Shown here piece by piece: positions 7,926 to 42,437 of a stretch of 42,437 bases of DNA (the first letter of the stretch is position 1; each line of letters begins with the position of its first letter). The notes below the pieces were generated by a model. That model did not search any database. It saw only the letters and a program-made list of their open reading frames with translations, and had not been told where the DNA came from. The DNA comes from a virus. Position numbers and translations under genes: made by a program. The stretch is taken from the IMG/VR virus record IMGVR_UViG_3300020183_000166, positions 1 through 42,437 of that record; one strand, 5' to 3'.

Positions 7926-8291
7926 TTAGTGCTCCATGAAAAATTGCAGATCATTAGTATTTATACCTGCATTACGTATTGCGTTAAAAGAATGTGCTGT
8001 TTTATATCCTGATGGTTTTGTATCATTGATAACAATACGTGCTCCTGTGCCTGCATTAAAAATGATATGATCGTATCGTATTCCTAAATTTTTAAGATTT
8101 TTTAAAGTAACTTCTTGATGATCATAAGGACGCCCGGTGATAATAACAATCATATCGTCTTTTGGTATTTGTGAGAATAATTCTGCGATTCCAGGCAATA
8201 ATAATTCTTCTCCGGTTTCATATGCTCGGTGCTGAACTATTGTACCATCCAGATCGAATATCCAAGTTTTTTTTAGTTTAGGGTAATTCAT
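7926..8291 (-). CDS. HAD-family sugar-phosphate phosphatase (121 aa)
   Basis: A compact haloacid-dehalogenase fold without a cap domain. Motif I is IFDLDGT (about 11-17, nucleophile Asp and acid/base Asp), motif II is IITGRP (about 50-55), and motif IV/III-like residues lie in ARIVINDTKPSGYK (about 84-97). Capless HADs of this size act on phosphorylated sugars or small phosphomonoesters. Its neighbours are the nucleotidyltransferase-kinase fusion upstream and a glycosyltransferase downstream (3-base gap), so it probably acts in the same sugar pathway. The substrate cannot be read from the sequence. Confidence 0.8.
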   Translation of the reverse strand: MNYPKLKKTWIFDLDGTIVQHRAYETGEELLLPGIAELFSQIPKDDMIVIITGRPYDHQEVTLKNLKNLGIRYDHIIFNAGTGARIVINDTKPSGYKTAHSFNAIRNAGINTNDLQFFMEH

Positions 8292-8324
8292 TTAAAATTA
8301 TTATTAATAAAAATACAATTTGTT

Positions 8325-9803
8325 TCATAAATTTATATTGTTATATAACAATACTCCATTATAAAATGCTAAAAGTATAGAACTATAATCTTCTTTTACA
8401 TATCCACATAAAGAAAACCAAATTAATACATGAAGTAATTTTATTTCTTCCTTATTAAAGGGAATAGAATTAAAGAATAAATCTTCATATTTTTCCCAAC
8501 CATTTGTATCTATGCTATATCTGATACTGTTATCTAAAACCTCTAATGAGTATTTTTTAGAATTTACATTATCATAATTTCCTATAAATGAATAATATAA
8601 TTTTGCCCAGTCGTATCTGGGATCACCATATAATTTATTTTTTCCAAAATAACCACGAGGATCTATCAGATAACATCTATTGTCCAAATTTATCATATTT
8701 GAAAATGTACAATCTCCGTGTATTAAAGTAAAATGTTTTACATCATATAATGATTCAATTTTTTGTTTAAATTCTTCTATATGTTTAGTATGAAATGGAT
8801 TAATATATCTTTTTTCATTTATCTGTATAGTTTCATCATTAAAAAATGGTATAAGATCTGCTACTTCATAAACTCGTTCTAAAGTTTTTGTTAGATATAC
8901 TATTTTTAATTCTTCTAAATCCGTATTAATAAATTCTAAATTATGTATAGATTTTATTGTTTGTATTGTGTCCTGTAAAAAGGTTTCCGAGGGTTCACAA
9001 TTAAATGGATTTTTACCTTTTATTCTTTCTATTATAAATGGATCTTTAGATATCAGTTTAGGTATTCTTTCAAAATTGTGAATAGATACGTACTCGTACC
9101 ATCCTATTTCGTCTTTTATAAGTTTTTTATATTCATCTATTATTGCTTCTTTTTGTACTGTGTTTTCATTAAATTGCAATCTATTAAAAAATCTATTTGT
9201 TTTATTTAATTTGTAAAATCGTTCTTCTGTGCCAACATCATCCATATCTTCAATATTAAAAGATTGAGTATATCTACTATTTAAAAATGAAGTTAATGAT
9301 TGAGTTTCATCCAAATTATTTAATAATTCTTTATTTTTAAAATAAAAAATTCCAGCTACTCCATTTATTTTACTACTTTCTTTGATTAATTTTTCGTGCC
9401 TGAATGACCATCGACACGGAAATTGATTTTGTGTAGTTGTTATGCCTATACCTATTCCATTGATCTGTGGTTCTTTTATTTCACTTTTTACTAAAAGATC
9501 AGACCAAATGATAAAGAAAGAACCATTTAAATCTTGTATTGCTTGTGGAATACCAGCAGATGTTGACTTTTCTTTAGAAATAACAAATTTTATATCAGCA
9601 TCTGGCCTATATTTTTTAATATACTGTTCTAAAACATTTGCTTTATAATCAGCAATAATAATAAACTTACTATTAGGATTATTATCGATTAAATGAAATA
9701 TAATAGGTTTTCCATCTATTGGTATTAGAGCTTTAGGCTTTGTAGCAGTTAATCGGCCCATTCTAGAACCGTAACCGCCACATTGTACTATAAAAGTTTT
9801 CAT
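8325..9803 (-). CDS. Bifunctional sugar-1-phosphate nucleotidyltransferase and APH-fold sugar kinase (492 aa)
   Basis: Residues 1 to about 200 are an RmlA/MurU/LicC-type nucleotidyltransferase: the signature GGYGSRMG at 9-16, then KPKALIPIDGKPII (22-35). The C-terminal half (about 205-492) is an aminoglycoside-phosphotransferase/choline-kinase fold with the catalytic loop LIHGDCTFSN (about 357-366) and metal-binding LIDPRG (about 379-384), then YGDPRYDWAKLYYS. The same two functions occur together in MurU (uridylyltransferase) plus AmgK (anomeric sugar kinase) and in fused capsule-locus proteins. The predicted work is sugar to sugar-1-phosphate to NDP-sugar; choline activation as in LicA/LicC is an alternative. 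It lies between the HAD gene and a gene 2 bases upstream. Confidence 0.85.
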   Translation of the reverse strand: MKTFIVQCGGYGSRMGRLTATKPKALIPIDGKPIIFHLIDNNPNSKFIIIADYKANVLEQYIKKYRPDADIKFVISKEKSTSAGIPQAIQDLNGSFFIIWSDLLVKSEIKEPQINGIGIGITTTQNQFPCRWSFRHEKLIKESSKINGVAGIFYFKNKELLNNLDETQSLTSFLNSRYTQSFNIEDMDDVGTEERFYKLNKTNRFFNRLQFNENTVQKEAIIDEYKKLIKDEIGWYEYVSIHNFERIPKLISKDPFIIERIKGKNPFNCEPSETFLQDTIQTIKSIHNLEFINTDLEELKIVYLTKTLERVYEVADLIPFFNDETIQINEKRYINPFHTKHIEEFKQKIESLYDVKHFTLIHGDCTFSNMINLDNRCYLIDPRGYFGKNKLYGDPRYDWAKLYYSFIGNYDNVNSKKYSLEVLDNSIRYSIDTNGWEKYEDLFFNSIPFNKEEIKLLHVLIWFSLCGYVKEDYSSILLAFYNGVLLYNNINL

Positions 9804-9805
9804 AC

Positions 9806-10483
9806 TTAAAAAGAATATTTAATTACTTCAGGTTGAATAATAAAAGGTTCACCATTATGTATAAGAGAATCTTCACTAACTTCAATAGCTCCCCATGTGT
9901 GATTTACTGTTGCATTTTTTACTATAAAAGTCTTTAAATTAAGCATTTTTAATTCTCTTAATTCGGACATTCTCCAATCCATATTCCAACCATTTGCATA
10001 TATTTTATTAAAAATTAATTTTAAAATATCGGGCTGTTGTTTTAAAAATGCCATACCAAATGTCCAATGTTTAATCATGTCTTTGAATTTGACACCTGGT
10101 TCTGGTCCTATTTTTTCTTCTCCTGCTAATATGGACAGATACATGTCATATGAAATACCATCATAATTGTTAGTCATACAATCTTCTTCTATTTTTTTAA
10201 ATAAATCTTTAATTTGTTGTATTGTTATATTGTCTTCAAATTTTATATCTTCTGAATCAATTGCCCAATGGTATTGAGTATTTGTAGTTAAAAATGGTGT
10301 TATATGTGCAGCAAATAAACCACCATTATTTTGTTTAATTACAGGATGTGCATGCACACAATTTGGTCTATTTTCTTCTGTTAATTCATAAACAATATAT
10401 CGTTCAGTGTCTGAAAAAACTTGTTTCCAATAATCAGTAAATCCTGGTTTCCCTGGTCTATGTTTTAGAAATACATCTATCAT
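9806..10483 (-). CDS. Possible glycosyltransferase-like protein (225 aa)
   Basis: No family recognised with certainty. The sequence has a mixed alpha/beta look, with an acidic WAIDSEDIKFED segment (about 93-104) that could serve as a DxD-type metal site. An aromatic, Trp-containing region follows (IKHWTFGMAFLKQQ; ANGWNMDWRMSELREL). The end reads TVNHTWGAIEVSEDS. Its place in the glycan island, with 4-base overlap (ATGA) to the isomerase gene, argues for a role in sugar transfer or synthesis. It could also be a sugar-modifying enzyme of another type. Confidence 0.4.
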   Translation of the reverse strand: MIDVFLKHRPGKPGFTDYWKQVFSDTERYIVYELTEENRPNCVHAHPVIKQNNGGLFAAHITPFLTTNTQYHWAIDSEDIKFEDNITIQQIKDLFKKIEEDCMTNNYDGISYDMYLSILAGEEKIGPEPGVKFKDMIKHWTFGMAFLKQQPDILKLIFNKIYANGWNMDWRMSELRELKMLNLKTFIVKNATVNHTWGAIEVSEDSLIHNGEPFIIQPEVIKYSF

Positions 10484-11061
10484 TTTTGTTTTCCTATATC
10501 TCCACCTGGATGGTTTTTATAAAATTGTTCAACAGTAACATCTTTATATTTAACTATTCTCATACCAATACAGTGTAATAATGCCAAATAGCATATAAGC
10601 GAGCAAGTAGGCACACGATTCCACGGATCACATTCTCTTCCAATTGGAACATACAGATCTATATCAGAATATTTTTTTAATTTACAATCATGATTAGAAT
10701 GAATTAAACATATTTTTGAATTGCAATTTCTTGATTTTAATTTTTCACAAAAAAATATTAATTCGTCTGTGTTACCACTTTTAGATATTAATATGATTTT
10801 AGATCCATCTTCTATTAAACCCATATCTCCATGAACCGCATGGACAGGATCAAAAAATATTGATCGTATAGTTAATGAATTATAAGTAGATGATATTATA
10901 CTTGCAATATGCGAGTTTTTGCCCACTCCTGAAAAATAGACACATTTTTCATCTTTAATAAAATCAAAAATTTGATTAAATTGATCATTGTTTATATGAT
11001 CGCGTGTGTGTTCTAAAGAATCTATATTTTGTTCAAATAAAGAATAAATATCACCATTCAT
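10480..11061 (-). CDS. SIS-domain arabinose-5-phosphate isomerase, KdsD/KpsF/GutQ type (193 aa)
   Basis: Interconverts ribulose-5-phosphate and arabinose-5-phosphate if it keeps the family activity. Family motifs are all present: FSGVGKNSHIAS (about 43-54, catalytic Lys48), HAVHGDMGLI (74-83), LISKSGNTDE (91-100), RVPTCS (149-154) and NHPGGDIGK (183-191) with the conserved late His. It is a single SIS domain. Full-length KdsD is about 330 residues with two CBS domains, which are absent here, but single-domain A5P isomerases are known. In Gram-negative hosts the product feeds Kdo; in T4-like phage RB69 a comparable enzyme has been linked to DNA arabinosylation. It overlaps the genes on both sides. 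Confidence 0.85.
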   Translation of the reverse strand: MNGDIYSLFEQNIDSLEHTRDHINNDQFNQIFDFIKDEKCVYFSGVGKNSHIASIISSTYNSLTIRSIFFDPVHAVHGDMGLIEDGSKIILISKSGNTDELIFFCEKLKSRNCNSKICLIHSNHDCKLKKYSDIDLYVPIGRECDPWNRVPTCSLICYLALLHCIGMRIVKYKDVTVEQFYKNHPGGDIGKQK

Positions 11062-11770
11062 GGTTTATATTCTCTTCATAAATTTCTTTAACATTAGAAC
11101 AACGAACTGTTTTATAATCTAAAAAAGTATTACATAATTTTGCTTCTCGTAACCATTCTGGGGCTTTTGTTAAGCTTGGATAAATTACTGTTAAATCGTT
11201 TTTACATGCTAAGAAAAAATAATCACATAATCCATTTCTATAACAAATACATGGTTTATTTGTTTTAAATATTGTATACAACACATCCTGTAATGGGTAT
11301 TTGATGAGCGTCTCTTCGTTTAATATCCCATTAGTTTTATTTAAAATATATTGAGTGTGTTCATCACTTAATGCTAGCTTACCCATCCATTTGCCCATTT
11401 CTTTAAATACCACATAAGAAGCTTCTTCAATTTCTTTAATATATTTTCCTGTAATATTTACAGGTATTAAATCTTCATATGTTAATTTATGATTTTTAAA
11501 ATAACCCCAAGGACAATCTTTTGAATTATCTAAAAATTGAGTACTATGTAAATGTATATCCACATGATATGGTTGTGGTTGATTGATAAAATGAACTTCT
11601 TTTAATTCTGGAAACCATTCCTTTAAAAATAAGAAATTTTTATCTCTAACAAATAAAATTAATTCTGGATCTTTTAAATAATTATGTTTTTTCATTCCGC
11701 TAAGAAATGTCCATACACCTAAAAATGTATCACCAAAACTTATACTTCTATTTGTTCCAAGAATAATCAT
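11051..11770 (-). CDS. Unknown protein in the glycan island, possibly a GT-B-type glycosyltransferase (239 aa)
   Basis: Begins MIILGTNRSISFGDTFLGVW, a strand-loop-helix start that recalls GT-B glycosyltransferases such as the heptosyltransferase family ('GD..' after the first strand). A middle part reads LILFVRDKNFLFLKEWFPEL, and a late segment KPCICYRNGLCDYFFLACKN looks like the second Rossmann-like half. No definitive donor-binding motif is visible. The gene overlaps the isomerase by 11 bases and the upstream gene by 4, so it is co-translated with sugar enzymes. The assignment rests on context and weak fold resemblance. Confidence 0.4.
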   Translation of the reverse strand: MIILGTNRSISFGDTFLGVWTFLSGMKKHNYLKDPELILFVRDKNFLFLKEWFPELKEVHFINQPQPYHVDIHLHSTQFLDNSKDCPWGYFKNHKLTYEDLIPVNITGKYIKEIEEASYVVFKEMGKWMGKLALSDEHTQYILNKTNGILNEETLIKYPLQDVLYTIFKTNKPCICYRNGLCDYFFLACKNDLTVIYPSLTKAPEWLREAKLCNTFLDYKTVRCSNVKEIYEENINHEW

Positions 11771-12438
11771 GCTAATAATGCTACCGTTTCTTTTAGTTTG
11801 GTTTTTTCAAAATTAGAATAAACCTGATGATCACTATTATTATATCTCATGGTCCTTTGATATGTTACATCATATTTCGTATTAGGATTTATTGTGTAAT
11901 GGTCATGCTTTATAATAACATTAGGAAAATATGTAAGTTTATTGGCATTACCAGCCACTAATCTCCAAAATGTATCCACAAATACATGATTTAATTCTGG
12001 ATACGCCATATATCCTATTTTATCTAAAAATTTATGGCCTATGAAAAAACTAGTGAGTAAACAATCTCCCCTTAACATATCATTCCCATAAACAACGCGA
12101 TCAAAATTATTATGATCTAAATAATCATAAAATATTTTATCCCAACCTTGTGTATGAAAAGATACATCATCTCCCATAAATCCATAAACAGTATATAAAT
12201 CTTTAAATTGTTTATATGCCATATTTAGCGGATAAACTAATCCTGGCTTTTCATTTTTTATAATTAATATTTTTAATCCTGAAGTGATGTATTCTTGTAA
12301 TTGTGGATCATCATCGTCTAAAATAAAAACTACATCTACCAAATCTTTTGTTTTAGTTGCTTCAATATTTTGTGTTAGACTTAAACAAGTTTTTAGTCTT
12401 GATCTAGTGGGACAAAATAAAATTATTTTATTATGCAT
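11767..12438 (-). CDS. GT-A-type glycosyltransferase (223 aa)
   Basis: Starts with IILFCPTRSRLKTCLSLTQN, the usual first strand of a family 2-like transferase. It has VVFILDDDDPQLQEY (about 35-50), which may bind nucleotide, and YGFMGDDVSFHTQGWDKIF (about 90-108), which matches the 'GDD...GWD' metal-binding segment of a group of phage and capsule glycosyltransferases. An HVFVDTFWRLV segment follows at about residue 147. Short for a GT2 but complete. It overlaps its neighbours at both ends. Donor and acceptor are unknown. Confidence 0.65.
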   Translation of the reverse strand: MHNKIILFCPTRSRLKTCLSLTQNIEATKTKDLVDVVFILDDDDPQLQEYITSGLKILIIKNEKPGLVYPLNMAYKQFKDLYTVYGFMGDDVSFHTQGWDKIFYDYLDHNNFDRVVYGNDMLRGDCLLTSFFIGHKFLDKIGYMAYPELNHVFVDTFWRLVAGNANKLTYFPNVIIKHDHYTINPNTKYDVTYQRTMRYNNSDHQVYSNFEKTKLKETVALLA

Positions 12439-13294
12439 TTACTGTTCTCCAACTTTCATCTACTTTAAATTCTCGATGCATATAATGATATACAAAATCC
12501 GAAACTAATACTTCTTTCTTTATTAAACCAGAATCGTATATTTTTCTGGCCCATGGCAAATCCTCATTAAAAAATTTATCATCAAATATAAATTCTTTAA
12601 TTATATTTGTTCGTATAGGGCAGAGATGGGTTATTATAGAACAATGTGCCCATGTATTTTGTAATTTTGGATTAATATCTTTTATATTTTTATGCAGTGC
12701 ACAATCAACAAATTCTCCGGTTTTATCGCCGCTTAAAAAAGGAGCTGCTATTTGATTACAATGTATAAATGGTACAGTTCTATTTAATTTATTTTCTTTA
12801 TCATTTATATAATAGATTACTCCCAGCAAACCAACGGCATCTGGTTTTTCTTGAAAAGCTTTACTCAACAATGAGAAATAATTTTCAGAAATCATATCAT
12901 CATCATCAACAAAACACAAATATTCACTATTACTATAGTTTACTATTGCATTTCTTTTTGCACCTACTGAAATATTTTTAAAAGACATATTAACAATAAT
13001 ATGAAATTGTTTTGCCATTTCTGGTGTTATGACTTCTCTAATTCTTGTTAATAGTCTTAGAAGATAATGAACTCTGTCATAAGTTGATAAAATACCAATA
13101 CTGCATATTTTCTTTTCTATATTTGGTGTAGAATTTATTTTTATTGGTTCTGTAGTATCATCAAATGAAAATTCAATTTTAGTTAAAATATTTTGATCAT
13201 TTGCGTGATTACTTATCCATTGAAAACGTTCTTTTATGTTTTCTATATCTCTGGATGTGTTACTTTTAGATATTACATAAGTGTCATTAACCAT
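12431..13294 (-). CDS. Family 2-like glycosyltransferase (287 aa)
   Basis: The recognisable GT-A core starts about residue 65 (CSIGILSTYDRVHYLLRLL), continues with VGAKRNAIVNYSNSEYLCFV and reaches the metal-binding DDDDMISENYFSLL (about 133-146). The first 60 residues are unrelated polar sequence. Later segments (AHCSIITHLCPIRTNII, DEDLPWARKIYDSG-like NEDLPWARKIY) match the acceptor side of GT2 enzymes, where 'ED..W' carries the catalytic base. One-base junction with the next upstream gene and 8-base overlap downstream. Probably cytoplasmic; no membrane segment. Confidence 0.75.
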   Translation of the reverse strand: MVNDTYVISKSNTSRDIENIKERFQWISNHANDQNILTKIEFSFDDTTEPIKINSTPNIEKKICSIGILSTYDRVHYLLRLLTRIREVITPEMAKQFHIIVNMSFKNISVGAKRNAIVNYSNSEYLCFVDDDDMISENYFSLLSKAFQEKPDAVGLLGVIYYINDKENKLNRTVPFIHCNQIAAPFLSGDKTGEFVDCALHKNIKDINPKLQNTWAHCSIITHLCPIRTNIIKEFIFDDKFFNEDLPWARKIYDSGLIKKEVLVSDFVYHYMHREFKVDESWRTVNA

Positions 13295-14157
13295 TATCTA
13301 CCCCACATCATATTATAAAGATCATCATCAGCTAATTTTAATTGTTTTAATGCATTCCAATTATTAATAACAGCATTCTTTTTACTTATATAGGTGCTCT
13401 CATTCAAAAAATCAAGTATTTCTTTTTCTTTTCCAATTTCTAATCTAATTATTCCTGATTCATCAAATATTTTTGGTAACTGTTTTGTGCCCAAATAAAT
13501 TGGTACAGTTCCTGTAGCAAAACAATCTGTTAATTTTTCAGTATAATATGAATCATATACACCATTTTCAATAACAACACTAAACATATAAGGAATCAGT
13601 CCTTCGCCTTTTGTATCCCATGGTGTTGATGGATTTTTTACTGTTCTTTTTGTTCCATGAGCTCCGCCAAATACATCAAATTCACAATCTAATGCTAATC
13701 TTGCTATTTGATGGCGATACACATGTCCTTCTGTCATTTTTTTAGGAGAACAAAACATAGAACATAATTTATTTTTATTGTATATCGACCAATCATCTTT
13801 TTTTATCCATGGATAATTACTACCATTTTGGCAATACACAAAATTAGAATCTAATTCTAATAGATTAGAATCGCATGTAAATATTTTATTATAAAAATTA
13901 TTAAATAAAATTTTATAATTATGAATTAAAAATGAATAAACATCTGGAATTATAAATCTTGATTCGCATACCCAACCATAAATTTTATCTTTATTTATGT
14001 GTGTTGGTTTTACCATCAAACCACGATCAATATGAACTTCAATGTCTCCTTCATCTAAACTCCAATCAAAATTTGTTGGTTTTAGGTTTGAACAAGACGA
14101 ATGATTTAAATCAAAAGGGGCACCTATTGCTTTTATTTTGTACCTGGACTCTGCCAT
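13294..14157 (-). CDS. Glycosyltransferase resembling family 10 (alpha-1,3-fucosyltransferase-like) (287 aa)
   Basis: The C-terminal half carries the GT10 donor-binding pattern: YMFSVVIENG, then YYTEKLTDCFATGTVPIYLG (about 206-225). It corresponds to the family's 'FSLVIENS...DYVTEKLWDAFLAGTVPIYLG'. An upstream FDVFGGAHG matches the 'vDvyG' element. The N-terminal half (about 1-130) is divergent. GT10 enzymes normally use GDP-fucose, but relatives with other donors exist. No transmembrane anchor, as in bacterial and phage forms. It overlaps the gene upstream by 25 bases. Confidence 0.75.
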   Translation of the reverse strand: MAESRYKIKAIGAPFDLNHSSCSNLKPTNFDWSLDEGDIEVHIDRGLMVKPTHINKDKIYGWVCESRFIIPDVYSFLIHNYKILFNNFYNKIFTCDSNLLELDSNFVYCQNGSNYPWIKKDDWSIYNKNKLCSMFCSPKKMTEGHVYRHQIARLALDCEFDVFGGAHGTKRTVKNPSTPWDTKGEGLIPYMFSVVIENGVYDSYYTEKLTDCFATGTVPIYLGTKQLPKIFDESGIIRLEIGKEKEILDFLNESTYISKKNAVINNWNALKQLKLADDDLYNMMWGR

Positions 14158-14771
14158 GCTATTAATTCCTCACTCATTCCTAATTTCTTTAAAGCTTCTT
14201 TTTTAGAATTTACATCTGCTAAACCCATTACTATAATAGAATCTTCTTTCTCTTCTCCAGGCCAAACACAAAATTGTGGGCCCAAGAATTTCATAACAAA
14301 ACCATCTTTTTGATAAAAATGGTGTAGTATTCCTATTAGGGCTTCATGGTCAAACCATTTACCATCATTCATCATTTTTTTAGTTATAAAAATCCAATGT
14401 TGCAAAAACTCTAAAACTTTAGAATTAAAATTAAAGAAAATGGGGGATGCTTTAGCTGCAACTAATCTTGTATCTGAACAACTAACAACTAGATCTGTAT
14501 TGGGGACAAATGTATCAAATATTCCTAATGGTCTTCGCACATCAGAGTCTATATCTAGCCAGATTACAGGCTTTTGTTTTTGAATTAACATTTTGTAAAT
14601 AAAATCAGGTTTACTTAAACAGTTTTTTTGATACGAACCTAACGATATTTTTTCTCGTATATCATAGGGAATATTTAAACCATCTAATTGTTTTTTAATT
14701 CTATTAGCGTGGTCACTATAGTAAGTCGAATTGTCTATATCACTATAAAAAGAAATCACTTCAGTTTGCAT
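14133..14771 (-). CDS. Putative nucleotide-sugar-dependent glycosyltransferase (212 aa)
   Basis: GT-A-like layout: EVISFYSDIDNSTYYSDHAN at the start, KPDFIYKMLIQKQKPVIWLD, then the DxD-type site LDIDSDVRR (about 72-80). It continues as VSCSDTRLVAAKASPIFFNF, the 'mfN..' strand seen in small glycosyltransferases with a DxD motif. The end carries FDHEALIGILHHF and FCVWPGEE. Its ATG lies only 2 bases after the regA stop, so the glycan island begins in the same transcript as the replication genes. The substrate is unknown. Confidence 0.65.
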   Translation of the reverse strand: MQTEVISFYSDIDNSTYYSDHANRIKKQLDGLNIPYDIREKISLGSYQKNCLSKPDFIYKMLIQKQKPVIWLDIDSDVRRPLGIFDTFVPNTDLVVSCSDTRLVAAKASPIFFNFNSKVLEFLQHWIFITKKMMNDGKWFDHEALIGILHHFYQKDGFVMKFLGPQFCVWPGEEKEDSIIVMGLADVNSKKEALKKLGMSEELIAWQSPGTK

Positions 14772-14773
14772 AA

Positions 14774-15178
14774 TTAAGAGTTTCCTATATGATATTTAGG
14801 CACGAGTTGCCAATCTTTCTTTTCTTTATGAGGAATAATTTTTAACTGTGCTAAAGATAGTTGTGGTTCTAAATATTCTTCTGGGTCAACCGCTTCTAAA
14901 AGACCCCAATCATTTAATAATTTAACTATTAAATTTCGTCTACCAATATCATTGTCAGATATGTCTGTTTCTAATCCATCTAGTTCCAAAAGTTCTTTAA
15001 AATGCATTATAGCGTATCTACCGCGTTTATGAAGTATATGGCAACTTTGATATAATTTTTTTTCTTTTTTAGACGATACGCCCATTCTGGTAAGGGTTTC
15101 ACATACTTTTAAAAAATCTTCTTTTGATTTTAGTTTTACTTCTACACCCAAACCATCAAAAATATCTTCGTTTTCCAT
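14774..15178 (-). CDS. regA: RegA translational repressor (134 aa)
   Basis: Binds the start regions of many early phage mRNAs, including those of clamp and clamp-loader genes in T4, and blocks translation. The protein aligns with T4 RegA (122 aa) almost throughout: EDFLKVCETLTRMGV, LYQSCHILHKRGRYAIMHFK, LNDWGLLE and the C-terminal WQLVPKYHIGN. A 12-residue-longer total length comes from the N-terminus and the region before the C-terminus. It stands right after the clamp-loader genes, as in T4 and cyanophages. Its own start has only a weak Shine-Dalgarno (GCGGAT), and in T4 RegA represses its own message. Confidence 0.95.
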   Translation of the reverse strand: MENEDIFDGLGVEVKLKSKEDFLKVCETLTRMGVSSKKEKKLYQSCHILHKRGRYAIMHFKELLELDGLETDISDNDIGRRNLIVKLLNDWGLLEAVDPEEYLEPQLSLAQLKIIPHKEKKDWQLVPKYHIGNS

Positions 15179-15216
15179 AATAATCCGCTTTCATTTATTT
15201 TTTTAGTAACACGGAA

Positions 15217-15612
15217 TTATTTAGGAATTTTAGTATTTGTGCCACCTTGATCTAAAAGGCTAAAAATTGTTTTCCAATCCTGTTCAGAAATTAGGTCTAT
15301 TGCTTGTTTAGCTTTGATATGAGAATACCCATATAAAGTCTTCAAAGCATCTATACGCTCGTTGGACTCATCCTTGATCCATTTGCTGTATCGTTTACGT
15401 GCTCGAACAGACACCAGAAGAAAGTCGTATTGAAGCTTTTTACCCAGACCGGGTAGGCGGTTCATTTCGTTTGCCAGAAAGATGGTATCAGAAAAGTACG
15501 AAAGACCGCGATTGGCTAGAAACGGATTGTACTCCCGTTCACACCCGGGGTCTTCGTCCATAAGTGAAATTTTTGTTTGATTTATGGAATTTAAGAAGTC
15601 AAAAGGGTTCAT
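15217..15612 (-). CDS. 62: Clamp loader small subunit gp62 (131 aa)
   Basis: Partner of gp44 in the ATP-driven loader that opens and closes the gp45 clamp. Recognised from NPFDFLNSINQTK at the start, the middle NPFLANRGLSYFSDTIFLAN (about 28-47), and position between 44 and regA. It is shorter than T4 gp62 (187 aa), lacking much of the C-terminal part. The start overlaps the gp44 stop by 4 bases (ATGA); in T4 the 44-62 junction is also translationally coupled, which sets the 4:1 subunit ratio. Confidence 0.85.
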   Translation of the reverse strand: MNPFDFLNSINQTKISLMDEDPGCEREYNPFLANRGLSYFSDTIFLANEMNRLPGLGKKLQYDFLLVSVRARKRYSKWIKDESNERIDALKTLYGYSHIKAKQAIDLISEQDWKTIFSLLDQGGTNTKIPK

Positions 15613-16568
15613 TCTTTAAACTCGCAGTTCATCATTAGTTCCACCATAAACGCACACAGATTGATCTCTTGATCGGCCACAAATGCCGTCTTGTATTGAT
15701 ACTCGCCAATAACCACAACCGCCTGAGGAATACTCTTAGGGTCTAAATGCTCGTATAAGCCATCGTAGACCTTCCTAAACACATCCTGAGGGCTGTTGTC
15801 AAGGTTGTTGGCTACCCACTTACGGATCTCTGTAAAGTTTTTAGTCTTCAGGAATCCCATCAGTTCCTTGATGTTGAGTTCTCCTGCCGTGCTCAAAATT
15901 CCAATATCAATAACACCAGCAGAAGAGTATCGCTGGAGCTCATTTAATGTACGACGAAAATCCGGAAAATATTTAGCAACAACTTTAGACAATACTTTAA
16001 GATCGTATTCAATGCCTTCCAGTTCCAGAATAGCCTGACAACGGGCTAGGAATTCCTTGGCTAGTTCTGGACGTTCTTTGGACGGGAAGTTAAAGTCAAT
16101 AACCGTACAACGAGAATGGATAGGCTCAATGATACGGTTCTTGTAGTTACAGGTCAAGATAAACCGACACGTCTTGGCAAACTCCTCAATAGCTCCTCGA
16201 AGGGCAGGCTGAATGCTCTGGGCATTAGAGTAGTCAAACTCGTCCAGAATCACAATCTTCTGCTTGGCTCCTTCAGACAGTGACACGGTACTGGCAAACT
16301 GACGAATCTTGGTTCGCAGAGTGTCGATATTACCATCCTCAGAGCAATTGATTAGGATATGATCTGCACCTAGTTGTGTACACAGAGCCTTAGCCACCGT
16401 GGTCTTGCCCATACCGGGCTTGCCTGCTAGGAGCAGATTAGGACACTCTCCAGACTCCACAATAGCATTAAACGTGTCCTTGAGATCTTGAGGAAGCACA
16501 CAGTGATCAATGATTGCTGGTCGATACTTTTCTACCAGCAGTCCAATAGCGTCGTTTGCTGTAATCAT
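15609..16568 (-). CDS. 44: Clamp loader ATPase subunit gp44 (319 aa)
   Basis: AAA+ ATPase that loads the sliding clamp. Walker A is AGKPGMGKTT (about 48-57), Walker B is VILDEFDYSN (about 105-115), and the SRC arginine-finger motif is HSRCTVIDF. I place the start at the ATG at 16568, one base after the gp45 stop, with a perfect AAGGAG Shine-Dalgarno inside the end of gp45. This gives 319 residues, the same length as T4 gp44. An upstream extension of the frame into gp45 has no support. Confidence 0.95.
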   Translation of the reverse strand: MITANDAIGLLVEKYRPAIIDHCVLPQDLKDTFNAIVESGECPNLLLAGKPGMGKTTVAKALCTQLGADHILINCSEDGNIDTLRTKIRQFASTVSLSEGAKQKIVILDEFDYSNAQSIQPALRGAIEEFAKTCRFILTCNYKNRIIEPIHSRCTVIDFNFPSKERPELAKEFLARCQAILELEGIEYDLKVLSKVVAKYFPDFRRTLNELQRYSSAGVIDIGILSTAGELNIKELMGFLKTKNFTEIRKWVANNLDNSPQDVFRKVYDGLYEHLDPKSIPQAVVVIGEYQYKTAFVADQEINLCAFMVELMMNCEFKE

Positions 16569-35501: not shown

Positions 35502-35509
35502 TATTTATA
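35502..35509 (-). promoter_or_regulatory. Late promoter TATAAATA for genes 18-19
   Basis: A perfect octamer in the 40-base gap between genes 17 and 18, 27 bases before the gene 18 ATG, with AAGAGG in the leader. Confidence 0.8.
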
Positions 35510-37599: not shown

Positions 37600-38259
37600 T
37601 TATTGTATATTGAATGTAATACCAGCAGGATCTAAAACGTCTAAGTCGAAAGTATTTATGGTTTGTACGCCGGTCTTTACTCGGTTGTAGACGTAGGATT
37701 TTACTAAAAATTGGTATGTGCTAATAATAGATCTTCTAGAAGCAAAATCCCCCTCATATTCTTGACTTAATATTACTTTTTGTAAAACTATAGGAATATC
37801 TACTTTTTGGTGTAAAGGGGTCAAATTCAAACTAACCACAAATTCGGGATTAAATTGTGGTAATATTTGTTCTACTATTTGTAGATTTTCTTCTATATTT
37901 CTAGTGTATGCGTATAGACCGAACGTAAAATTATAGGGAGCTTCAGAGAAGGACGAATTTCCACTAACACCATCTAGTCTTAAATTTGTTTTATTTAATT
38001 TTCTACTAGGATCATAAACAACATCCATTATTTCAAACGCCATTTGAGGCACCGAAATTTCAACACGAGTTCTGTCACTAATCGAGCTGGGATGTGTTAA
38101 ACGCTTTATAAATTTTTCTTTTGGTGCATATGTTAATGGAACTTTAAAATCTACGTTTTGATTGTCTTTATCTTTTTGATAAACGTGAATATTGTTAAAT
38201 ACCGTTCCAACGGCTATAACTAATTTTCTAATAGATTCGTTGTTATAATACGTAAACAT
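37600..38259 (-). CDS. 15: Tail completion and sheath stabiliser gp15 (219 aa)
   Basis: Hexameric cap at the head-proximal end of the tail that joins the neck. Typical start MFTYYNNESIRKLVIAVGTV and FNNIHVYQ, then YAPKEKFIKRLTH, VEISVPQMAFEIMDVVYDPS (about 78-97) and FGLYAYTRNIEENLQIVEQI. The C-terminal VLSQEYEGDFASRRSIISTY is also conserved in the family. T4 gp15 has 272 residues. The gene shares one base with the gene 14 stop. Confidence 0.92.
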   Translation of the reverse strand: MFTYYNNESIRKLVIAVGTVFNNIHVYQKDKDNQNVDFKVPLTYAPKEKFIKRLTHPSSISDRTRVEISVPQMAFEIMDVVYDPSRKLNKTNLRLDGVSGNSSFSEAPYNFTFGLYAYTRNIEENLQIVEQILPQFNPEFVVSLNLTPLHQKVDIPIVLQKVILSQEYEGDFASRRSIISTYQFLVKSYVYNRVKTGVQTINTFDLDVLDPAGITFNIQ

Positions 38260-38885
38260 TAGTAGTTACCTTCCGAGAACGGATCCGTTTCTGTGAAATC
38301 AATCAAGCTGTTATCTAGAGTATCTAACAAAGTATTCTCATCTGTTAGATCTGCAGGAAGATGTTCAGTTACGATAGCATCCACATCAGTATTGCCTGTG
38401 GTAAACGATTCTTGATTGTAGTTGTAAAGTTCGCAAGTTAATCTGTAAGAGTACAGTTTTCCTAGTTGATAAAAAGGATTTTCGTGCTCTACAAAGTTTA
38501 TTTCAAATAGTGCACGAGCTAAAGGAAAAAATATCAGATCGCCTTCTTTTGGTCTGGTTATATCCGGAAAACGTGTTTGTACTTCTTGAACAAATCGTTT
38601 TCTTGATACCGTTAAAAGTACGTTATCACGAATTTCAATACCAAACTTGGTTGCAATATCTCCTTGACCTTCAAATCCAGACACAGAATCTATATACATT
38701 TCGATAGGAATACCGTCTTTGAAGTAATTTCCTTTTTGTTCACCAAATAATTCATCTTGTGTTACATACTTTTTAGGTATGTACAGCATGTCCCGTCCCA
38801 TTGTTTTAATAATTTCAATGGTAAGATCTTCAACCAGATCTTGCTCTTCTTTAAAATTCTTATTAAAATGGGGATTGGTTGCCAT
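38259..38885 (-). CDS. 14: Neck protein gp14 (208 aa)
   Basis: Part of the head-completion neck that attaches the tail. Start HFNKNFKEEQDLVEDLTIEI then KTMGRDMLYIPKKYVTQDEL (about 29-48) is the family hallmark. Later KFGIEIRDNVLLTVSRKRFV and EGDLIFFPLARALFEINFVE (about 115-134) with NPFYQLGKLYSYRLTCELYN (about 137-156). T4 gp14 is 256 residues. One base separates it from the gene 13 stop, as expected for a neck operon. Confidence 0.92.
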   Translation of the reverse strand: MATNPHFNKNFKEEQDLVEDLTIEIIKTMGRDMLYIPKKYVTQDELFGEQKGNYFKDGIPIEMYIDSVSGFEGQGDIATKFGIEIRDNVLLTVSRKRFVQEVQTRFPDITRPKEGDLIFFPLARALFEINFVEHENPFYQLGKLYSYRLTCELYNYNQESFTTGNTDVDAIVTEHLPADLTDENTLLDTLDNSLIDFTETDPFSEGNY

Positions 38886-38886
38886 A

Positions 38887-39684
38887 TTAACCTGTCATGA
38901 AATCTATTGGTAGCTCGTAGCTAGACATCATTTCTTGCTCAATTTGAGCAACTTCTGCGTTTCCTTCTGCCCAAATTTGAGCACCACGCATAGTTACACC
39001 ACCTGGAAGCTGAACACCATCAAATTTAGACATGTTAGCTCCCCATTGTCTTTTTATTAAAGCCTTTACATAACGTTTTAGATAACGATCGCTATAAATT
39101 TCTGTAAACGTTTCTGGATCCAATGCAGCATATGCTAAAATACAAATCCAATCTCCAACTTTAAATTCAGCCCAATCCATGTCTAAGTTTAGTCGATTAG
39201 TTACTTTACTAAATCGTATAGCTTTTTCGGGTTGGAATAAATCTTCTATTAATTTTATATAACGTTTAGTTGAATCGTAATTGGCAAGACCCATGGAATA
39301 AACACCACTAAGATTTCTGTTTATTCCAAAGTAATCTGTTAAAGCCATCTGATAACGAATATCAAACATGTTCATGCTGGCAAAATTACCGAACTGATGA
39401 ACACGAACTACAGAAAGTATATCCTTTCCAGTAGGACCGTCTATACCATTAGGAGATGCTATATCTTCTGTAGAAATATACTTGTTAGTAATATCTTCTT
39501 GGGTTATTTGGTACTTAAACCAAACCTTTTCAACACCATCAAAATGGCGTTCTTTAAAGTAAGATAATGCTTCATCTAAACGATCCTCGCATTGCTGCCA
39601 GTCTACGTTTATTTCTATAATGGGAGAACCTAGTTCTCTAAGACAATAATTTATTAAATCTTCTCGTGATGTTATTGAGGCCAT
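38887..39684 (-). CDS. 13: Neck protein gp13 (265 aa)
   Basis: Head-completion adaptor below the portal. Family start SREDLINYCLRELGSPIIEI then VDWQQCEDRLDEALSYFKER and HFDGVEKVWFKYQITQEDIT is very characteristic. IWAEGNAEVAQIEQEMMSSY lies near the C-terminus. T4 gp13 is 309 residues. A CATAAATA late-type motif lies 7 bases before the ATG and no Shine-Dalgarno is visible. It starts the block 13-14-15-16-17. Confidence 0.92.
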   Translation of the reverse strand: MASITSREDLINYCLRELGSPIIEINVDWQQCEDRLDEALSYFKERHFDGVEKVWFKYQITQEDITNKYISTEDIASPNGIDGPTGKDILSVVRVHQFGNFASMNMFDIRYQMALTDYFGINRNLSGVYSMGLANYDSTKRYIKLIEDLFQPEKAIRFSKVTNRLNLDMDWAEFKVGDWICILAYAALDPETFTEIYSDRYLKRYVKALIKRQWGANMSKFDGVQLPGGVTMRGAQIWAEGNAEVAQIEQEMMSSYELPIDFMTG

Positions 39685-39718: not shown

Positions 39719-40447
39719 TTACTTTTGTTCACTGCTACTCGCAGGTGGCTTTTCCATTTGAGGCAAAGATACTGAAATCTTTTCTACCTCAGAATAGTTT
39801 ATATTTTCAATATAATGCCGCCTTGTTGGTGGAGGACCTGCTTCTTCAGGTTTGCTTGCCTCGTAGTTGGTAAAACCAGGCATCTTGAGAGGACAGCTTA
39901 AACGGGGGTAATCTAGTTTGCTGTATTCTTGTCCTTCAGCAACAAGCCATGTGTGTGGCTTATCACCACATCCACAGCCACCACAAAAATGCTTACCTGC
40001 TAAAACTGTGCTCTTTCTAAGGTATTCGCATGGAGGAAGTTCTCCACCCTGTTCTTTATTACCAAAACAACTTAAAACTCGTAGTTGTTTTGTTGGTTTA
40101 TTTATTTTAGCATTAGAAATACCACGGGAAGCAAGAGCACTGGCAAAGCTTTGTACCATACCAATTTTCTTACCAATTTGTTCTTTTAAATTACTTGCAG
40201 ACTCTACTTGTCGTTCTTGAAACTTGACTTCTTTATTTTCTCCAGAAACTTCTGCAGTTCGTTTTTGTGGTGCTGGCTGGACTACTCCAGTTTTAATTGG
40301 ATATTTCATGTATCCTATATTTGGAACCGATGGAGCAATTTCTCCCGGTGAAGGCATACCTGCTGTTTCTGCTGTAGCTTGAGTTGGTGGGGACTGAACT
40401 GTGCCAGCTTTTTTTGCGGAACAACCACAACCTTTTTTGTTTTGCAT
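39719..40447 (-). CDS. Cysteine-cluster protein of unknown function (242 aa)
   Basis: Begins with a CGCSAKKAG segment and a Pro/Ala/Thr-rich low-complexity region (about 15-75). The centre is helical (FASALASRGISNAKINKP). Residues about 125-200 hold a compact Cys cluster: LSCFGNKEQGGELPPCEYLR, HFCGGCGCGDKPHTWL and YSKLDYPRLSCPLKMPGFTN. Nine or more Cys with a CGGCGCG core suggest a metal or Fe-S site, or disulphides. The Pro-rich C-terminus ends with SSSEQK. It has a good TTAGGAG Shine-Dalgarno and lies just before gene 13, a slot used in T4 for fibritin. Not a fibritin by sequence. Function unknown. Confidence 0.65.
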   Translation of the reverse strand: MQNKKGCGCSAKKAGTVQSPPTQATAETAGMPSPGEIAPSVPNIGYMKYPIKTGVVQPAPQKRTAEVSGENKEVKFQERQVESASNLKEQIGKKIGMVQSFASALASRGISNAKINKPTKQLRVLSCFGNKEQGGELPPCEYLRKSTVLAGKHFCGGCGCGDKPHTWLVAEGQEYSKLDYPRLSCPLKMPGFTNYEASKPEEAGPPPTRRHYIENINYSEVEKISVSLPQMEKPPASSSEQK

Positions 40448-40473: not shown

Positions 40474-41865
40474 TTATGTACCCAATTCAATTCGTCTAAT
40501 TAAACGAATATTTTGTTCTGCAGTATTTTCAGGAACAACAAATATATCTCCATAATTCTCTTGTGTTGTTCTTTGAGCGTAAACTAATTTTGCATTACTT
40601 AATGCACTACCAGAAGATACATTAAAAAATGTGGAAGTCAAATAATAATCTTTATTCAACGGTTCAAATCCTGTAGTACTATAATTATAATCAAGATTTT
40701 GTGAAATAAATTCCAATTCTGATTTACTGGGAATATACCAATCTGTAAATCCATTTATACTTAGATTAGAAATATTACTAATCATTTTTTGTGTTAGATT
40801 ATGATAGCCATCATATGACGATGTGCTTGTGTTTGCCATGTAAAATTTTAAAGTTTCAAGATCTGTTGGGGCAACTATTATAATCCATCTTCGTTTGTTT
40901 GTTCCGTAGTTATTTTTTATAGACTTGTAGGTTTGAGCTCTGCCTGATGTGTTATTTCCTAAAACTGTAGAAACTCCTGGTTCAAAAATACCAGCAAATA
41001 ATCCGCCTTGATATAGTTCACCAATTGACGGTATTTTTTCTAAAATATTAGTAGAAGTGTTTAGTGTAGTAAAGCTAGCAGTAGGTGGACTTGATATTCC
41101 ATTTTCTACCTGTTGAAAATATACTCCAGAACACAGAGAACCAGATGTACAAGATTTAACATACCCAAAATAATTCCAAAATCCTGAACATGCTTCTTTA
41201 GTTGTTATGTTACACAATATACTGCCATCGTCTTGTCGTGTACAGCAATTTCCGAGTAGATTTTCTTGTTTAAAGCATTCTTGATCTGTATCAGGCACAC
41301 ACTCTGGCCCCAGTTCTTCTTGTTGGGCCTTTGTGCCCTTATATGTTCCATGACATATTACGTCTCCGTCTTGAGACGCACAAAATTTTCCAGGATAGAA
41401 AGAATATTTTAGTCCCTCAGCAGCACCATCATGCAAGTTCTTACAGTCTAATTCCGAATTTACCTGTTCGCATTTGTTGATGTAATCGTTGCCGTCTTGA
41501 TACCAGTGACAACATGCTCCTCCACCAACCAGTCCCGTAAATAAATCAGGACATTGACCGGCACTAGTTATTGTTGTTTCGACCCATATAGGATTGTCTA
41601 CATTTTTTACGCATTGACACTCTGTAATATTTGTTGTTAAAGTTTTTACTCCGCCAGGATATGTACAACAATTTTTTCGTGTTTGTTTAGGGCAAAGAGT
41701 TTCACTTCCTGTAGGAACCCAATATCCTCCAATATTAAAACAATCTACTTTTACAACTGAACCGGTATAACCACCACTACCATCCATTTTACAACAGCTA
41801 CCAGTATCATTTATTTCTTTTACAACAAGTTGTTGATTTAGTGGTATTTTTTGAAATTGAAACAT
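40474..41865 (-). CDS. Cys-Cys repeat protein with a C-terminal DUF1566/Lcl-like domain (463 aa)
   Basis: Residues about 20-260 carry several degenerate Cys-rich repeats, each opening with a GxCC or NCC pair (GSCCKMDGS, KNCCTYPGG, GACCHWYQDGN, GNCCTRQDDGS) and ending in spaced single Cys. One unit (CCTRQDDGSILCNITTKE, then GFWNYFG and C) closely follows the 'GACC..DG.C...T...C...GG.W.G..C' repeat common in planctomycete proteins. The C-terminal 190 residues include GFTDWYIPSKSELEFI, YYLTSTFF and the final IRLIRRIE, matching the DUF1566/Lcl C-terminal fold, a C-type-lectin-like receptor-binding module. Likely a virion adhesin. A secreted or neck-attached role is unproven. Confidence 0.65.
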   Translation of the reverse strand: MFQFQKIPLNQQLVVKEINDTGSCCKMDGSGGYTGSVVKVDCFNIGGYWVPTGSETLCPKQTRKNCCTYPGGVKTLTTNITECQCVKNVDNPIWVETTITSAGQCPDLFTGLVGGGACCHWYQDGNDYINKCEQVNSELDCKNLHDGAAEGLKYSFYPGKFCASQDGDVICHGTYKGTKAQQEELGPECVPDTDQECFKQENLLGNCCTRQDDGSILCNITTKEACSGFWNYFGYVKSCTSGSLCSGVYFQQVENGISSPPTASFTTLNTSTNILEKIPSIGELYQGGLFAGIFEPGVSTVLGNNTSGRAQTYKSIKNNYGTNKRRWIIIVAPTDLETLKFYMANTSTSSYDGYHNLTQKMISNISNLSINGFTDWYIPSKSELEFISQNLDYNYSTTGFEPLNKDYYLTSTFFNVSSGSALSNAKLVYAQRTTQENYGDIFVVPENTAEQNIRLIRRIELGT

Positions 41866-41866
41866 G

Positions 41867-42437
41867 TTAGCAACTTTCTAGTTCATTACAAATATCATTT
41901 ATTTCTGAGCAATCTATATGAGTGCAAAGACCATCAATTCTTTTTGTCTTGATTCCGCCTGTTAAAGTTTCTCGAAGTCCTGTGGAAGTTACATTAGATA
42001 AAGCATAATCTGTTAGAGCTATATTAATATATTCATAATAATTGAATGAATATTTATTACTAAAACCAAAAATAAATCCAATATAATTTCCAGAAGCATC
42101 AGTTGTTGGTTTTGGCACTATTCCTGTGTTTTCCCATGCAGTGTAAATACCAGACAATAAATTAGAGAATGCTATATCTTCGCCGCTAGGTTGATACTCT
42201 TCTTTAAGTAACACGTATATTTGCCCATTTTCAAATGCAGTTGCAAGAGGGGACTTTTCACCACAAGGATGATCATATGGATCGAGATATGGTTGATTTT
42301 CACAGTTACCCGAATCATCACACAACAATTGTACCTCAGGATCTTCTAAATACGATCTTAAATTTGCATTATTTATGCCAATAAAATTAATTGGGAATCC
42401 TCTACTATCATAGGTTTGGTGATATTCATACGGATCG
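41867..42437 (-). CDS. Unknown structural-type protein, N-terminus beyond the right edge
   Basis: The frame stays open from the stop at 41867 to the last base of the window, so the real start lies outside. An internal TTG at 42328 is not a credible start, because coding-like sequence (GFPINFIGINNANLRSYLED) continues upstream. Visible parts include CDDSGNCENQPYLDPYDHPC, a YVLLKEEYQPSGED strand, an aromatic YIGFIFGFSNKYSFNYYEYI, and a Cys-rich end (LCTHIDCSEINDICNELESC). There is one base between it and the next gene. Probably part of the same virion surface group as the Cys-Cys repeat protein. Family not recognised. Confidence 0.6.
   Translation of the reverse strand, partial: DPYEYHQTYDSRGFPINFIGINNANLRSYLEDPEVQLLCDDSGNCENQPYLDPYDHPCGEKSPLATAFENGQIYVLLKEEYQPSGEDIAFSNLLSGIYTAWENTGIVPKPTTDASGNYIGFIFGFSNKYSFNYYEYINIALTDYALSNVTSTGLRETLTGGIKTKRIDGLCTHIDCSEINDICNELESC

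Follow-up and report, generated by a model that had tools for sequence, protein, structure and literature searches.

In some T-even phages, the gp38 adhesin docks on gp37, and the whisker protein of T4, fibritin (the product of wac), is a long trimeric coiled coil. The Lcl domain is a glycosaminoglycan-binding trimer situated beyond a collagen stalk (PMC11162425); no domain was more frequent than DUF1566 among the targets of retroelements in human microbiomes, and both 4EPS and DUF1566 are linked to retroelement-diversified proteins (PMC4159848); and eight disulfides staple the iRhom homology domain, whose structure has been called unprecedented.

The DNA analyzed here (the window) is the whole of a 42,437-base virus record, IMGVR_UViG_3300020183_000166, and represents a fragment of a T4-like phage. 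Its minus strand carries matches to the head-tail adaptor (in the place of gp13), the T4 neck protein (gp14), the sheath stabilizer (gp15), the large terminase, the sheath, and the portal. Within this block lies a complete gene for a 463-aa protein composed of a short N-terminal segment, Cys units, and a lectin-like domain; its start is separated by a single base from the stop of the preceding gene. The features relevant to this gene are as follows:

40474..41865, minus strand: gene for the 463-aa protein (open reading frame [ORF]; 33-row family alignment A2; model)
41116..41802, minus strand: Cys region, residues 22 to 250, with CC at 24, 66, 118, and 207 heading units (repeat-profile matches, per-Cys conservation)
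40477..41082, minus strand: DUF1566/Lcl-like domain, predicted to be C-type-lectin-like, residues 262 to 463 (Lcl_C below cut-off; 4eps at Z 9.3)
41867..42436, minus strand: last 189 aa of the gene that precedes it, running off the window edge (ORF)
41870..41926, minus strand: Cys-rich tail at the C terminus of the preceding gene, for which a docking role is proposed (tail pattern found at the stop)
39719..40447, minus strand: 8-Cys gene, 242 aa, lying between gp13 and the 463-aa gene (76 of 80 loci have a match)
38887..39684, minus strand: gp13-like head-tail adaptor, used as bait (phrog_211, E = 4e-39)
38259..38885, minus strand: gp14-like neck protein (PF11649, E = 1.6e-33)

The gene thus lies beside the neck genes, as an earlier note on this DNA had said; it is two genes upstream of the gp13-like adaptor, with the gp14-like neck protein next. 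The sequence TATAAATA, which we take to resemble T4 late promoters, occurs at window positions 35509, 32981, 29217, and 28277, shortly 5′ of structural genes, and CATAAATA occurs 5′ of gp13; none was seen 5′ of the 463-aa gene. A cyanophage identity was considered and rejected: the psbA/psbD family is present in 0 of 14 records, though the best listed matches of the portal are cyanophages at ~52%.

The 463-aa protein contains 23 Cys (5.0%, versus 0.99% over 48 other window genes, a baseline that leaves out two neighboring Cys-rich genes; binomial P = 6e-10) and four CC pairs, three of them GxCC, versus none in the 50 other window genes counted. Shuffled versions of the protein had at least four CC pairs in 225 of 20,000 cases and at least three [GN]xCC in 9 of 20,000. 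A repeat profile drawn from related contigs, with the window left out, matches the protein at E = 6e-8 (best of 200 shuffles, 0.59): there are clear units at residues 116 to 162 (E = 2e-7) and 205 to 239 (E = 3e-4), a marginal unit at residues 22 to 52 (E = 0.08), and a nonsignificant unit headed by C66. The GxCC pairs and spaced Cys repeats pointed out in the earlier note are therefore borne out by a profile independent of the window. The tandem unit, GxCC-x-C-x-C-x-G[FWY]-x-C, is a CC repeat of the Phycisphaerae type, matched by the profile at three units (the marginal one included) and also present in cellular loci. In the 33-row alignment, C24, C25, C42, C118, C132, C141, C162, C207, C226, and C239 are invariant in all nongap rows; C58, C105, C119, C218, and C245 are kept in all except one to three rows; and conservation is lower at C171, C189, C197, C208, and the Cys of the second unit. 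The N-terminal segment reads MxIQFRxR in most relatives. Modeled alone, the Cys part reaches a mean pLDDT of 84; its comparison with known folds gave a best Foldseek E of 0.57 and no VIA-align Z of ≥2 among 330 chains, with iRhom absent from the listed matches; these results do not indicate a new fold.

As to whether such Cys form disulfides after release or bind metal, alternatives that the earlier note had set side by side, the former is favored. Profile A4, whose units were chosen by hand, finds its best PDB matches in iRhom1 (E = 0.0012) and iRhom2 (E = 0.022 to 0.025), each through one clear and one weak unit (entries 9xy4, 9q7y, 9o58, and 8snl), and the reversed profile has no match at an E of 10. 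The matched stretch is short and could reflect convergence. The domain concerned is stapled by disulfides, which argues for disulfides over metal; by analogy, the Cys of the 463-aa protein would pair after release. We regard it as unlikely that the Cys units are instead metal sites of a Zn-stabilized stem that folds in the cytoplasm. Virion proteins are synthesized in the cytoplasm, and the Erv1-type oxidase family is found in 0 of 14 records (the control genomes are silent too, so this has little weight), but the best solved matches of the repeat are to iRhom1 and iRhom2, with a domain of eight disulfides, and many cellular ORFs bearing the repeat have signal-peptide-like starts, as judged by eye on 25 of the 55.

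Beyond the Cys units, Pfam family Lcl_C/DUF1566 (PF07603) matches the 463-aa protein at E = 2.8e-4 and 21.6 bits (23.7 bits for the domain alone), under the gathering cut-off of 34.9, and 23 of 33 relatives match it at an E of 0.01. The protein also matches phrog_4245, a family of unknown function (E = 4e-5). An AlphaFold2 model built with 33 sequences has a mean pLDDT of 77.8; residues 1 to 14 and 61 to 113 are poorly predicted, and the model is mostly confident past residue 262. When the predicted domain (model residues 262 to 459) was searched with VIA-align, the best solved match was 4eps (Z 9.3 over 167 residues, 17% identity); nearly all others among the matches listed are C-type lectins at Z 4 to 5, plus two EgtB entries, but a Z of 4 to 5 counts as common by the standards of the tool, and 4eps alone stands out. 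C-type lectins also rank top in a Foldseek search with the whole model, yet at an E of 0.3 or worse, and the search against viral models returned no convincing match. In sequence searches of the PDB, the window protein has no match, and the family profile and the two-unit profile A5 have no convincing one. The C-terminal domain is, on the predicted model, a C-type-lectin-like fold; the DUF1566/Lcl-like C terminus proposed in the earlier note holds, both through the sub-cut-off Lcl_C match and through the structure prediction that the note had suggested as a check. The reverse transcriptase family RVT_1, which would be expected in the genome of a diversity-generating retroelement target, occurs in 0 of 14 records, mostly fragments, with control genomes matched.

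Relatives were gathered with gp13 as the bait, keeping the best 80 of 362 loci; this worked better than the 463-aa protein as bait, which retrieved only contig L002. Four tblastn searches of 50,697 phage records disclosed no convincing relative: the sole match of the 463-aa protein, Pseudomonas phage PMBT3 (33% over residues 279 to 394, E = 0.03), was rejected, and the 8-Cys gene and two relatives had no match. Nine of the 80 loci are without a usable upstream gene, and some ORFs in the slot (the position held by the 463-aa gene) are cut by contig ends. Among the 71 informative loci, the slot is filled by an Lcl-type gene in 54, so the 463-aa gene is no orphan, and by another gene in 17. Mapped on a 72-row gp13 tree, the slot label requires 5 changes, of which supported branches force no fewer than 3, versus 15.2 with shuffled labels, which indicates that the slot gene is largely inherited and sometimes replaced. 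Seven relatives (L014, L022, L027, L031, L049, L050, and L051) carry extra sequence past the lectin domain. Identity to L002 is 74% for the 463-aa protein, versus 90% for gp13 and 91% for gp17 (part); it is 81% for gp15, 76% for the 8-Cys gene, and 54% over 136 aa for the fragment of the preceding fiber gene. Since gp15 and the 8-Cys gene diverge almost as fast as the 463-aa protein, and the fiber fragment faster, host range may lie there. Three side observations concern the slot and its surroundings: the 8-Cys gene (39719 to 40447) may bind metal; L085 has at 8178 to 16061, on the minus strand, a slot protein of 2,628 aa with 251 Cys, 34 CC pairs, and an Lcl-like domain at its end; and L037, from a lineage with a different gene in the slot, has a 102-aa ORF with a canonical CC repeat (2259 to 2564).

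The proximity to gp13, two genes downstream, and the regularity with which the 8-Cys gene and the slot gene accompany gp13 across many loci would also suit a decoration of the neck or collar at the wac position, whose lectin domain would serve loose attachment to surfaces or mucus rather than receptor recognition. We think this quite improbable, since the slot gene is swapped between lineages, fiber-like genes precede the slot in larger contigs, and the long helix is absent from the predicted model. Direct homology to either of the T4 proteins suggested by the position is not supported: the model has no helix of more than about ten residues, unlike the coiled-coil rod of fibritin, and, as regards gp12, the protein has no match to any tail-fiber or Collar family (none to Collar, PF07484, at an E of 1, nor to a tail-fiber PHROG).

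Upstream DNA was examined in six records, one of which, L088, ends short of the region. In the others, the slot is preceded by two or three genes that encode a short anchor and 5 to 11 uninterrupted collagen triplets followed by Cys-rich sequence, some of them terminating in an Lcl-like domain and others not; the window shows no collagen stalk of its own. The family profile matches 13 of 16 records, 10 of which hold further Lcl-like copies beyond the slot gene. In the window, the fragment of the preceding gene is 29% identical to the C terminus of an L003 protein of 926 aa with 36 Cys, and it carries a Cys-rich tail at its stop, which makes it probably the end of a long Cys-rich fiber that starts beyond the window. 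A tail of the type C-V-x-I-D-C...C...C, a pattern defined after inspection of the tails, stands at the stop of the preceding ORF in 26 of 42 loci with an Lcl-type gene and in 0 of 11 others; among the 16 Lcl loci without the strict tail, seven have a similar one by eye, one a degenerate one, and eight none. Two fibers of other contigs deserve separate mention. In L084 (8033 to 11281), one phage fiber unites a collagen run, Dockerin_1 (23.8 bits, just above the Pfam cut-off of 22.9, plus a sub-threshold match to a GC-type dockerin), CC repeats, and an Lcl-like domain, and in L087 (13177 to 15585), a collagen-led fiber of 803 aa ends in RCC1-type repeats.

In the reading that we consider fairly likely, the product of the 463-aa gene is an adhesin of the virion that forms the receptor-binding end of a fiber. 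This reading is based on the C-type-lectin-like predicted fold, together with the ligand binding of DUF1566 relatives; on a slot that is kept yet replaced through at least three supported changes; on a block that holds collagen-stalked, Cys-rich proteins, with the tail confined to loci with the Lcl-type gene; and on the extension of seven relatives past the lectin domain, along with divergence faster than that of gp13 and gp17. Against it stand the Pfam score under the cut-off, the commonness of lectin matches at Z 4 to 5, the 16 of 42 loci without a strict tail, the comparable or greater divergence of gp15, the 8-Cys gene, and the fiber fragment, and the lack of a collagen stalk in the window. 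The gene and its domains, the predicted fold, the conservation and replacement in the slot, and the co-occurrence with tail-bearing genes are directly established. The receptor-binding role proposed in the earlier note thus gains support from the predicted fold, the slot, its change of gene between lineages, and the link to collagen-stalked fiber genes; presence in virions, docking, ligand binding, and disulfides are inferred.

As an adhesin, the 463-aa protein would be made directly after the long Cys-rich fiber protein and, with its Cys still reduced in the host cytoplasm, would dock on the Cys-rich C-terminal tail of that fiber, in the manner of gp38 on gp37 in some T-even phages; disulfides would form after lysis. 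The N-terminal segment and the Cys units would make up a small rigid stem, from which the C-type-lectin-like domain would face outward to bind a cell-surface glycan or protein. The result would be a two-part fiber present in the virion: a collagen-stalked, Cys-rich shaft with a docking tail and, on it, the 463-aa adhesin.

The repeat itself is mostly known from exported-looking cellular proteins, as might be expected if the protein were a nonstructural factor, secreted or released by lysis, for example a binder of host debris or matrix. However, the gene sits inside the late structural block, with fiber-like and neck genes on either side and one base from the preceding gene, and we hold such a role to be very unlikely. 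Searching bacterial and archaeal genomes with a degenerate DNA pattern for GACCxxDGxC gave at least 118 loci, and 75 of the 118 among the matches listed belong to Planctomycetota. The phage repeat profile is also positive in 50 loci among those listed: 43 from Planctomycetota, 2 from Myxococcota, 1 each from Bacteroidota and Actinomycetota, and 3 from unnamed bacteria, with 32 of the 50 labeled Phycisphaerae. At an E of 1e-5, it is found in 3 of 99 genomes of Planctomycetota (including the center genome, picked for carrying the repeat), 0 of 99 of Bacteroidota, and 0 of 100 of Pseudomonadota. The label "planctomycete-like" given to these repeats therefore stands for most of the listed profile-positive loci but applies to only part of the phylum, chiefly Phycisphaerae. 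Of the 55 cellular repeat ORFs among the matches listed, 12 have a dockerin-like motif, written after the L084 fiber had been seen, versus 0 of 1,761 other ORFs of at least 150 aa from these loci; the Lcl-domain profile has no match at an E of 10 among the ORFs of the cellular repeat loci listed. One contig, L091, comes from a bin named Micrococcales and has two CC-repeat ORFs with signal-like starts; it is planctomycete-like by eye and may be misbinned.

The shared repeat and the L084 dockerin suggest gene flow with planctomycetes, perhaps as hosts, and a planctomycete host for the phage is possible, if unproven. Against the link are the GC content (35% in the phage loci versus 62% in the planctomycete loci, measured on 25 of these 43), the presence of the repeat in so few of the planctomycete genomes, and the occurrence of the phage family in 0 of 294 planctomycete genomes, a search without any positive to validate it. 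We offer it as a doubtful conjecture that a large uncultured T4-like clade infects Phycisphaerae-like planctomycetes with an attachment apparatus built from exported parts of the host (collagen, CC arrays, dockerin, and lectin-like tips). On this conjecture, its fibers would be made reduced in the cytoplasm and become disulfide-armored on lysis, and a lectin adhesin able to detach would dock on their Cys-rich tail. If the link is true, these proteins provide a handle on phages of that phylum, of which few are known. The fiber architecture itself (a collagen stalk, Cys repeats of the disulfide type, and a lectin-like tip) is present in many environmental T4-like contigs and in 0 of 50,697 phage records at the sensitivity of four tblastn searches, and no paper among those listed describes such a phage protein in its title or abstract opening. 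The architecture also opens to testing the question of how a virion protein containing dozens of Cys matures after being assembled in the cytoplasm.

Among known systems, Legionella Lcl is similar in uniting a collagen stalk and a C-terminal DUF1566 lectin-like domain but differs in being a bacterial surface adhesin whose domain has no disulfides (PMC11162425). The phage counterpart of its stalk is in neighboring proteins of the relatives, some of which bear an Lcl-like domain themselves; in the slot protein, CC repeats precede the domain and there is no collagen run. The Bacteroides ovatus protein 4EPS (BACOVA_04982), the best fold match of the C-terminal domain, is itself bacterial and fimbrial, and we know of no CC repeats in it. 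Phycisphaerae CC-repeat proteins have the repeat profile in common with the phage protein and, in some cases, a dockerin-like motif, as in one phage fiber; they differ in that they look secreted and have no Lcl-domain match in the loci listed. The iRhom homology domain shares, by profile only, the CC-x-C-x-C-x-G-x-F unit (one clear and one weaker) but is the extracellular domain of an animal membrane pseudoprotease. T-even gp37/gp38 are alike in gene order only, with an adhesin directly after a fiber gene, whereas the phage gene is located at the neck genes. For this phage group, in which no cultured member was found, the slot protein and its fibers are made of known kinds of parts in a new combination.
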